In this document: piece by piece, positions 7,744 through 57,704 of the stretch
How positions within the stretch are numbered: the first letter of the stretch is position 1
Layout of the letters: each line of letters begins with the position of its first letter
Assembly (NCBI RefSeq): GCF_901538265.1
Contig: NZ_LR593886.1
Coordinates: 8,205,738-8,269,737, forward strand
DNA from: Gemmata massiliana
Lineage (GTDB): Bacteria > Planctomycetota > Planctomycetia > Gemmatales > Gemmataceae
DNA length: 64,000 nt
Direction of reading: 5' to 3'
Program-made: the position numbers and the translations under genes
The notes under the pieces: generated by a model
What the model saw: only the letters and a program-made list of their open reading frames with translations
Told to the model about the DNA's origin: nothing
Databases searched by the model: none

Positions 7744-7875
7744 TCTTGCACGTCCAATTGGAAGAGTTGTTGGCGACCGCGTCGCGTTGGTGTAGGAGTA
7801 GGTCGGAGGAGCACTACCGTACCCGGTTTGGCGAGCGCGCGGGAGCCTTTTTTGCGTGTCACCAGCCACAAAACA

Positions 7876-7905
7876 GCGCGGGCCGGGAATTGCTCCCGGC
7901 CCGCG
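7876..7905 (-). terminator. Terminator-like hairpin after structured element copy A
   Basis: A perfect 12-bp stem (7877-7888 with 7894-7905) has a 5-base loop. Read on the minus strand it is followed by GCTGTTTTG, a modest thymine run. It lies 33 bases downstream, on the minus strand, of the end of the structured element at 7938-8160, and upstream of the dehydrogenase start at 7743. The position fits a transcript that contains the element and stops here. Confidence 0.55.
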
Positions 7906-7937
7906 TGCGACCAAATGGTCCTTGTTCCCGTAGCGTC

Positions 7938-8160
7938 TACTTCTCAACCTGATTCGCGGAAGGCTCACGGCACCGCCACGGTGTCGGCGCCGAATTCGGC
8001 GAGTGAACCACGTCCCGCGGGGTTGTTCCAGTCACTCGCCGAATTCGGCGCCGACACCGTGATAGCGGTGCTGGAATAGCCTTCCCCGAGACGAGTGTCG
8101 AGCAGTTTTCTCGGACGACGCAACATCGTCCTGTCGCAGAGCGACGAGCTAAACACGATC
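7938..8160 (-). ncRNA. Structured RNA-like element, copy A (hypervariable 28-bp stem)
   Basis: On the minus strand this 223-bp stretch aligns with 57438-57659 with only one single-base gap. In minus-strand order it has: GATCG and TTTAGCTCG; a hairpin GTCGC-TCT-GCGAC; a 6-bp hairpin GGACGA/TCGTCC; then GGAAGGCT and GCACCGC, which pair with AGCCTTCC and GCGGTGC on the far side. Inside those is a perfect 28-bp stem (8033-8060 with 7978-8005) closed by a 27-base loop (8006-8032). The flanks and loop are conserved with copy B. The 28-bp stem sequences are unrelated, yet each pairs perfectly within its own copy. No protein reading is supported. The region 7744-8217 holds nothing else except hairpins. 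Confidence 0.75.
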
Positions 8161-8174
8161 GGGAACAAAGACAA

Positions 8175-8214
8175 AGTACCCCGGCGAAAGCCATAATGCA
8201 ATCGCCGGGGTACT
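8175..8214 (-). terminator. Terminator of the DUF1571 gene
   Basis: A perfect 13-bp stem (8175-8187 with 8202-8214) begins 4 bases after the stop of the minus-strand DUF1571 gene. On the minus strand it is followed by a thymine-rich tail, TTTGTCTTTGTT. This is a convincing intrinsic terminator. It separates that gene from the structured element downstream, so the element probably has its own promoter. Confidence 0.75.
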
Positions 8215-9826: not shown

Positions 9827-9965
9827 GAAGAACCTACCCCCCATCCCCCTCCCTAAAGGGAAGGGGAGCAGACCCTTTGGAGTCCGCTAGCACGGAGCGA
9901 ATTATCCGAGAGTTCGCGCGCCTGCTCCCCTTCCCTTTAGGGAGGGGGATGGGGGTAGGTTCTTC
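9827..9965. repeat. Near-perfect 44-bp inverted repeat, G/C-run palindrome family
   Basis: Arms 9827-9871 and 9922-9965 are inverted copies of each other with a single-base length difference in a run of C/G. A 50-bp spacer separates them. Each arm itself contains a CCCTAAAGGG-type palindrome. The unit begins right after the stop of the MBL hydrolase and ends just before the convergent outer-membrane gene, so it may serve as a two-way terminator. Related units, built from CCCCTTCCC...GGGAAGGGG and ending in TAGGTT, are at 15260-15382 and 36540-36775. Confidence 0.8.
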
Positions 9966-49868: not shown

Positions 49869-50111
49869 ACCCGCGTTACGCGGCGCGTGCGGGCTCAGTT
49901 CAATACGATCCGAAGTGCGGAGCCGATCAGGAGATCAAAGTCAAGGAACCGGCGGCGCCGGGTGAAGGAGAAATGAAGATCGAGATTCTGGTTCTGCCGC
50001 GTTTGCGTATTCGGCGTTCGCGTTCTATCTTCTCTCAGCGAACGGTCGGGTGCGTTTTGGGTGCCCGATCGGGGGCGTGCGTCGGCGCGTTCCGCGCGCC
50101 ACACCTTTCAT

Positions 50112-50206
50112 CCTCGAAAGGGCTAACCCGCCGCGAGGCGGGGGCGCAAAGCCACGGGCCTGCGGGGTACCCCACCAAACCACCCGCAGGTCGCCTGGTT
50201 GCCGAA
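50112..50206 (+). promoter_or_regulatory. Cyclic di-GMP-I (GEMM) riboswitch-like RNA
   Basis: The order of conserved blocks matches the GEMM-I aptamer. GAAAGGGCTAACC (50116-50128) is followed by P2, CCCGCC/GGCGGG (50127-50132 with 50137-50142), capped by a GNRA tetraloop GCGA. Next come GCAAAGCC (50146-50153) and P3, CCTGCGGG/CCCGCAGG (50159-50166 with 50183-50190), and then GGTCGCCTGGTTGCCG (50189-50204). GGG in the ligand junction is as in c-di-GMP-binding members. No plus-strand gene follows within 800 bp, so what it controls is unclear. The 49869-50483 region has no other recognised content. Confidence 0.75.
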
Positions 50207-57380: not shown

Positions 57381-57437
57381 GTCGTATCCGTGATTGCGGT
57401 CGCCGCGCCGGTCGGCTACTTTGCTCGCATGTTCTCG

Positions 57438-57659
57438 GATCGGTTTAGCTCGCTGCTTTGCAGCAGGACGATGTTGCGTCGTCCGAGTGCTCCGCTTCGC
57501 ACCCGTCTCGGGGAAGGCTGTTCCAGCACCGCTATCGGCCAGGGGCTGGCCAAGCATGCTGCGGTCTGGGCCAACCTCGCGAGTCGCGGTTCCGCAGCAT
57601 GCTTGGCCAGCCCCTGGCCGGCGGTGCCGTGAGCCTTCCGCGCCCCAGGTCGAGAAGTA
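57438..57659 (+). ncRNA. Structured RNA-like element, copy B (hypervariable 28-bp stem)
   Basis: The plus-strand counterpart of 7938-8160. Order: GATCG and TTTAGCTCG; hairpin GCTGC-TTT-GCAGC (copy A has GTCGC-TCT-GCGAC, two compensatory changes); hairpin GGACGA/TCGTCC; GGAAGGCT and GCACCGC pairing with AGCCTTCC and GCGGTGC. The core is a perfect 28-bp stem (57537-57564 with 57592-57619) closed by a 27-base loop (57565-57591). The loop has AACC/GGTT and an inner CTCGCGAG, where copy A has CCCGCGGG. The 28-bp stem is unlike that of copy A (about 9 of 28 positions match). There is no coding evidence. Confidence 0.75.
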
Positions 57660-57673
57660 AACATCCGAGAACG

Positions 57674-57704
57674 GACCGGGCCGCGGAAGATCCGCGGCCC
57701 GGTC
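57674..57704. terminator. Hairpin after structured element copy B
   Basis: A perfect 14-bp stem (57674-57687 with 57691-57704) with a 3-base loop, 14 bases after the element. It can stop plus-strand transcription from the element, and also serves the convergent minus-strand gene that ends at 57708. There is no thymine run. Confidence 0.55.

Follow-up and report, generated by a model that had tools for sequence, protein, structure and literature searches.

Dispersed solo elements in Gemmata resembling type XIII retron RNA genes with largely unrelated msd stems

Retrons yield small hairpin DNAs via reverse transcription. The non-coding RNA (ncRNA) of a classical retron, for example Ec86, carries a1 and a2 segments, msr hairpins and a long msd hairpin, and normally one such ncRNA adjoins its reverse transcriptase (RT). 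To our knowledge, retrons have been studied as one RNA beside one RT. The classification published by Mestre et al. in 2020 reportedly includes the type XIII retron. In Nannocystis exedens the msDNA-like repeats (Retron-Nex1/Ne160), attributed to Lampson and Rice (1997), are, in the accessible part of a review, duplicated msr and msd copies with no RT within a kilobase, and a distant RT was suggested for them (PMC6868368). The same part of that source describes diversity-generating retroelements, in which adenine mutation of the template is directed at a protein gene (PMC6868368).

The elements considered here were found in Gemmata massiliana and share with the classical retron RNA (Ec86) a1 and a2, an AGC with the presumed priming G, msr hairpins and a long msd hairpin, but differ from it in that Gemmata has many ncRNAs per genome, which would act in trans if they act at all. 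Their likeness to the type XIII retron lies in a founder locus with RT_XIII, two HEAT-ARM_XIII and SWIM_XIII genes (PADLOC models) and the element RNA at its head, whereas in Gemmata the RNA is additionally encoded by dozens of solo genes whose stems are unrelated. As in Nannocystis exedens, the nearest precedent, msr-msd copies lie away from the RT; perfect locus-specific stems, exchange of cassettes and spread over many species are seen for Gemmata and do not appear in the accessible part of the Nannocystis account (PMC6868368). Diversity-generating retroelements, as far as the accessible part of the source describes them, likewise tie an RT to genomic sequence diversity, but in Gemmata hairpins are replaced whole, with both arms staying complementary. 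No report of such dispersed retron elements was found in the accessible parts of the open-access literature on retrons, Gemmata or planctomycete RNAs, orphan msr-msd, type XIII and wobble or covariation (including PMC8867640, PMC9252829 and PMC12548924). Both type XIII retrons and msDNA-like repeats that lack an RT (Nannocystis) are known; the dispersed, diversified and swapping set seems to be new.

The window, as the whole 64,000-nt stretch of DNA analysed is called here, contains two such elements. An earlier note on this DNA had described two look-alikes at 7938-8160 (minus strand) and 57438-57659 (plus strand), and both are present there in opposite orientation, aligned as described (around the stem, one block of 107 nt at 80% and one of 43 nt at 88%). 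The inverted repeats that it gave as perfect are perfect, but the arms are longer than the claimed 28 bp: in copy 1, 7977-8006 pairs with 8032-8061 over 30 bp (100% complementary), and in copy 2, 57536-57564 pairs with 57592-57620 over 29 bp. The loop of 27 bases holds for copy 2 and is 25 nt in copy 1. Direct alignment bore out that the arms of the two copies are unrelated while flanks and loop are conserved. Folding of copy 2 gave z = -10.3 for the RNA and z = -10.4 for the complementary DNA, each against 200 shuffles, and the hairpin is therefore not a product of chance. The parts of the two copies are as follows.

7922-8168, minus strand: copy 1, putative solo retron ncRNA (msr-msd), a1 to a2; covariance model match at 7921-8168, 253 bits, high by construction because the model (R1) was built from 52 copies that include both window copies
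8173-8201, minus strand: copy 1 sigma70-like promoter (TTGCAT, 17 nt, TACTTT), by pattern, letters checked
8160-8168, minus strand: copy 1 a1 (TTGTTCCCG), partner of a2, from the a1:a2 duplex test
8148-8150, minus strand: copy 1 conserved AGC, in which the G at 8149 is expected to prime; AGC invariant in 52/52, role as in the accessible part of PMC6868368
8133-8145, minus strand: copy 1 msr hairpin SL1, predicted structure
8113-8131, minus strand: copy 1 msr hairpin SL2, predicted structure
7977-8061, minus strand: copy 1 msd variable stem, arms 8032-8061 and 7977-8006, loop 8007-8031, from the inverted-repeat search
7922-7930, minus strand: copy 1 a2 (CGGGAACAA), from the a1:a2 duplex test
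7867-7905, minus strand: copy 1 putative intrinsic terminator, 12-bp hairpin, CTGTTTTGTG (locus L015), by hairpin pattern
57430-57672, plus strand: copy 2, putative solo retron ncRNA (msr-msd), a1 to a2; covariance model match at 57429-57676, 252.7 bits, likewise high by construction
57394-57422, plus strand: copy 2 sigma70-like promoter (TTGCGG, 17 nt, TACTTT), by pattern
57431-57440, plus strand: copy 2 a1 (GTTCTCGGAT), partner of a2, from the a1:a2 duplex test
57447-57449, plus strand: copy 2 conserved AGC, in which the G at 57448 is expected to prime; AGC invariant in 52/52
57452-57464, plus strand: copy 2 msr hairpin SL1, predicted structure
57466-57484, plus strand: copy 2 msr hairpin SL2, predicted structure
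57510-57642, plus strand: copy 2 msd, with lower stem, variable 29-bp stem and loop 57565-57591, from inverted repeat and fold
57663-57672, plus strand: copy 2 a2 (ATCCGAGAAC), from the a1:a2 duplex test
57674-57704, plus strand: copy 2 terminator-like hairpin with a weak T run on the plus strand (locus L001), by hairpin pattern

Elsewhere in the window, a c-di-GMP-I riboswitch was recognized at 50111-50206 on the plus strand (59.6 bits against a gathering threshold of 35), and 9838-9871 forms a perfect 34-bp inverted repeat with 9922-9955 that belongs to a CCCCTCCC-type repeat, relatives of which lie near 15.3 and 36.6-36.8 kb.

Read 5′ to 3′, the element consists of a1, GTTTAGCTCG with the invariant AGC, SL1, SL2 around GATGTTGCGTC, a short variable spacer, the msd and a2; the msd is made up of a lower stem, the variable stem and a loop of the form CTGG..CAACC..GCG..TCG.GGTT. 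The AGC near the 5′ end is found in all 52 aligned copies, and in retrons, according to the accessible part of the source, the priming G sits within a conserved AGC (PMC6868368). Among 123 elements passing the anchors there are 108 distinct a1 sequences, so that a1 and a2 vary from copy to copy yet match their own partner: the median a1:a2 duplex is -20.1 kcal/mol with the own partner versus -11.5 with partners exchanged, and 8.5% of the predicted a1:a2 pairs are G.U. Covariation, seen as double changes in the aligned copies, occurs at 37 of the 66 predicted pairs. A promoter pattern precedes 19 of 30 copies in the window's own genome (3 of 900 control windows), and a terminator hairpin follows 18 of the 30 (25 of 900 control windows), so not all copies are clearly autonomous. 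Together with the operon linkage described below, the anatomy gives good support to reading each window element as a solo version of the ncRNA of a type XIII retron, a putative stand-alone msr-msd gene. A search for an Rfam identity yielded no family that fits; weak matches to miRNA precursors reflect long hairpins only. Two loci in other genomes, L055 (G018) and L056 (G010), carry a similar long additional hairpin within msr SL1.

The variable stem was surveyed in 157 distinct copies, out of 207 detections in the fetched loci, of which 152 had scorable arms (L025, L046, two in L052 and L113:8735 were dropped from the scoring). The test proposed in the earlier note, run on the collected copies, found the length nearly constant and the sequence free, with neither a common stem in most copies nor ragged stems. 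Of 4408 stem pairs in the 152 copies, 4366 were Watson-Crick, 6 were G.U and 36 were mismatched; 120 stems were perfect over 29 bp, and the loop was 27 nt in 140 of the 157 copies. Since 99% of pairs are Watson-Crick despite unrelated arms, the proposal that both arms change together at a set length is upheld. Where arms were alike at 21 or more of 29 positions (46 pairs), 235 changes affected both arms versus 14 in one arm; these are not independent events, since arms occur in more than one pair and some of the likenesses at 21 may be fortuitous. The idea of an identity-bearing hairpin fits in that most loci have a stem of their own; some arms recur in more than one copy. Membership of a passive repeat or MITE family, with its sequence common throughout and subject to ordinary decay, was rejected, the arms being mostly unrelated and yet 99% Watson-Crick. 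The two arms of L046 (G018:C713, in a fragmented genome) are unrelated to each other, and either recombination or an assembly error may have produced this copy.

Internal inverted repeats were sought within single arms. In 119 non-redundant arms the mean was 5.39 pairs, versus 4.28 (sd 0.08) in dinucleotide shuffles and 3.72 in genomic 29-mers of like G+C; an initial test of 49 arms, from which L046 and L016 were left out, was weak except at one centre. Such repeats would be palindromic sites in an msDNA duplex. No exact match in IMG/VR was found to the 28-nt arm of either window copy, no plasmid matched a whole window element, and phage matches to a whole window element were only partial, with E from 3 to 10 among the 20 of 80 records listed. 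For the two arms tested there is therefore no evidence of an origin in phage.

Comparison of the same loci between genomes revealed that the variable core is replaced as a unit, one of the three possibilities raised in the earlier note, both at the locus of window copy 1 and at loci with recurring cassettes. By automatic comparison, ten loci of the window's genome have homologous flanks on both sides in genome G009; eight of these keep the arm (28 or 29 of 29 positions), and two have unrelated arms, L004/L131 (12/29) and L024/L144 (10/29), with the msr 88-100% identical. L131 and L004 are the same locus, with identities of 0.95 upstream, 1.00 in the msr and 0.93 downstream but 0.41 in the arms, and the arms and loop of L131 are identical to those of L150, a different locus in another species (G012); in flanks, a1 and msr, by contrast, L131 agrees with its own locus. 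The cassette of L024 is common to L017, elsewhere in the same genome; farther upstream, the flank of L024 is unlike its G009 ortholog (0.48). At the locus of window copy 1, the flanks are 96% and 90% identical in G009 and the arm matches at 10 of 29 positions, and in G012, where one flank matches at 85%, the arm matches at 3 of 29; three species thus have three unrelated stems there. The arm of copy 2 is identical in G009. The comparison with G012 shows switching at the founder (L014/L129) and at L005/L156 as well, and L002 and L151 share a cassette at different loci on different scaffolds. In the automatic ortholog comparison, pairs matched on both flanks numbered 45, two of which (one a tandem pair within L085, the other L113/L119) are not genuine orthologs. 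Because arms and loop recur elsewhere while flanks follow the locus, the msd is exchanged as a unit, and the aligned sequences themselves demonstrate the replacement of whole msd cassettes between loci.

The genome of the window (G000) has nine RVT_1 genes, five of them retron-like among the eight scanned with PADLOC; the scan omitted the RVT_1 gene L063, the translation of which resembles L062. Two of the five retron-type RTs fit type XIII at more than 500 bits, RT67 (best PADLOC model RT_XIII, 528 bits) and the also RT_XIII-like RT64 (517 bits). The operon partners of RT67 are HEAT-ARM, WD40/HEAT and SWIM proteins, and the founder operon has the order element, HEAT-ARM_XIII (1178 bits), HEAT-ARM_XIII (2112), SWIM_XIII (620) and RT_XIII (528). 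Here the founder element lies 12.3 kb upstream of RT67 and more than 0.6 Mb away from the window copies. A similar operon with HEAT-ARM and SWIM partners is present in G110. Both the element and RT67 occur in 29 genomes; in all 19 in which both were found on one contig an element stands upstream of RT67 on the same strand, at 11.4-12.6 kb in 18 of them and at 13.2 kb in G002. The 15.5 kb upstream of the RT in G085, a genome with RT67 and a single element, contained no element (L124); the fetched contigs of G048 and G063 stop short of the expected founder site. In G215, from another family, an RT_XIII gene (543 bits) is followed after 87 bp by an element that has a TTGACT/TATAAT promoter and a terminator of its own. 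None of five RT queries matched in the 1.5-kb flanks of 90 loci with solo copies, which makes the case for service in trans an indirect one, and within about 9 kb of the element in other genera one weak 53-residue match was the only RT signal, this near-absence arising because the RT sits about 12 kb away. At L100 (G069), L105 (G045) and L113 (G105), paired elements side by side head a type XIII operon. Long inverted repeats with GGATTCACCGCAGAGGGCACG occur between type XIII operon genes in L114 (3629-3734) and L115 (3321-3431 and 5352-5498).

Across 95 genomes of the family, element and RT67 were both present in 29 and both absent in 62. RT67 was seen without a found element in two (G050 and G051), whose short RT contigs could not have shown the founder site, and the element without RT67 in two (G053 and G057), in which the matches are weak or partial. 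G023, counted as having neither, has a 111-residue RT67-like fragment (65%) and no elements. In each of five genera (g1, g25, g37, g40 and g52) some genomes have both and others neither, and no genome has one alone. Over the 95 genomes, phi with the element was 0.90 for RT67, 0.58 for RT64, 0.52 for RT66, 0.29 for RT65 and 0.11 for RT69; p values on co-occurrence across related genomes do not represent independent tests. Orthologs were counted at or above identity floors read by eye (RT67 61%, RT64 53%, RT66 55%, RT69 59% and RT65 43%); the next full-length match to RT67 was at 46%, and fragments in G023, G013 and G047 went uncounted. A link of the element to the type XIII RT is well supported by this combination of gene order and co-occurrence.

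Copy 2, used as a BLAST query against the window's 10.1-Mb genome, had 37 matches; setting aside the one that falls on the inverted repeat of the query itself leaves 36 element places, 33 near full length and 3 partial. With the covariance model of 52 copies, a match was found in 31 of the 95 family genomes and 10 of 39 genera; within the window's genus 17 of 19 genomes have the element, with at least 7 to 24 matches each among the best candidates scored. The exact SL2 motif also occurs in named relatives, among them Gemmata sp. IIL30. A scan of 294 genomes of the phylum identified three with a match besides the window's own, strong in G173 and G215 and with E 4e-4 in G171. Two copies outside the family, as aligned, keep a long paired stem of different sequence (43% and 49% G+C). 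The site of copy 2 is occupied in the window's genome and in G009 and is without an element in the seven other genomes in which both flanks could be connected, the gap between the aligned flanks being 43 bp in G012, 97 in G005, 110 in G003, 120 in G002, 127 in G001, 144 in G004 and 185 in G008.

The strand on which the pairing is selected was approached through wobble pairs, since a transition in one arm turns a pair into G.U or A.C on the RNA, and A.C there corresponds to G.T on the complementary strand. Events were counted once per cluster of related arms, pairs usually in the wobble state were excluded, and rows L025, L046, L097 and L099 were left out. The ratio of G.U to A.C was 41:15 in stems classed as RNA-only and 15:40 in msd stems (Fisher p 1.5e-6), and 2:17 in the variable stem alone (p 7e-4), counts that rest on alignments fitted to the model and in which kinship of the genomes makes the Fisher p overstate independence. 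Five closing pairs, classed as RNA-only, break the RNA pattern (5:9 after wobble-consensus pairs were dropped). Opposite wobble directions inside one transcript argue against mutational strand bias, and the counts suggest that selection acts on the msd hairpin as the complementary, putatively reverse-transcribed strand. The hairpin is accordingly not best read as the dsRNA that the earlier note had entertained, or as a guide RNA, given a wobble test that favours the cDNA strand, the msr-msd anatomy and the retron linkage.

From these sequence comparisons we consider it very probable that the solo elements are self-standing retron ncRNA genes, most likely served in trans by the type XIII enzyme RT67, for which we infer msDNA output, service in trans, replacement by a cDNA route and a role in defence. 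Each element would comprise a promoter, a1, the msr (AGC, SL1 and SL2), the msd, a2 and often a terminator. RT67, the likely provider in trans, would reverse transcribe the solo RNAs, primed from the G of the AGC, and copy the msd, and one cell could then contain dozens of msDNAs with a common scaffold and differing perfect 29-bp stems with an internal palindrome. Replacement of cassettes would proceed through cDNA, and different stems might serve as different baits or sensors in defence; a role as a defence repertoire is a guess. The full scheme, in which one RT serves dozens of dispersed ncRNA genes and msd hairpins are written back into other copies as heritable, diversified DNA baits for a type XIII defence complex, is offered tentatively, and we lean somewhat against it.

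Several other explanations were weighed. A structural RNA, a long dsRNA hairpin dispersed in Gemmata with no reverse transcription and only its pairing of importance, would account for the strong RNA fold, the promoter- and terminator-like ends of many copies and the conserved pairing with free sequence; selection on RNA should, however, tolerate G.U above A.C, against the 2:17 of the variable stem, and this explanation leaves the AGC, a1 and a2, the place in the type XIII operon and the co-occurrence with RT67 unaccounted for, so we regard it as quite improbable. A passive interspersed repeat in decay, or an element of MITE type, would fit the many copies, the presence or absence at a site and the three partial copies, but is very hard to reconcile with 99% Watson-Crick stems of unrelated sequence and nearly fixed length, with covariation and with a conserved operon place. 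We find it equally hard to credit an integron attC-like folded-DNA recombination site: folded single-strand DNA, conserved ends, a variable stem and a hairpin that is the unit of exchange all recall one, but here the hairpin itself is exchanged rather than a gene between sites, and what the elements were found linked to is an RT operon; the attC comparison drawn in the earlier note is not needed.

The remaining alternatives accept solo retron RNA genes and differ over the enzyme or the route of exchange. Another retron RT of the genome might serve the solo copies, for example RT64, with its 517 bits to RT_XIII and moderate co-occurrence (phi 0.58); this is unlikely, as 11 of the 31 element-bearing genomes have no counted RT64 ortholog (G001 and G004 have short RT64 fragments), six genomes have RT64 but no elements, and it is RT67 to which the element is linked in 19 genomes. 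The switching of stems might be ordinary RecA-type gene conversion between chromosomal copies rather than a cDNA-mediated event, and to this we would assign an even chance. Conserved blocks flank the arms in all copies and are enough for conversion, and the spacer, and sometimes the msr, also differ in switched pairs; on the other side, the tract at locus A is that expected of an msd, with msr, a1 and a2 as in the ortholog, although the cases are few and boundaries in conserved blocks fit both routes.

The wobble-strand test provides a simple, sequence-only query for use of a hairpin as cDNA that is applicable to other retron RNAs. For the biology of the group, the reading as solo type XIII ncRNA genes would describe a retron family in which the RNA has expanded into a genome-wide set of locus-specific hairpins. 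With many natural variants in each strain, and natural swaps among them, the purpose of the msd stem would become testable.
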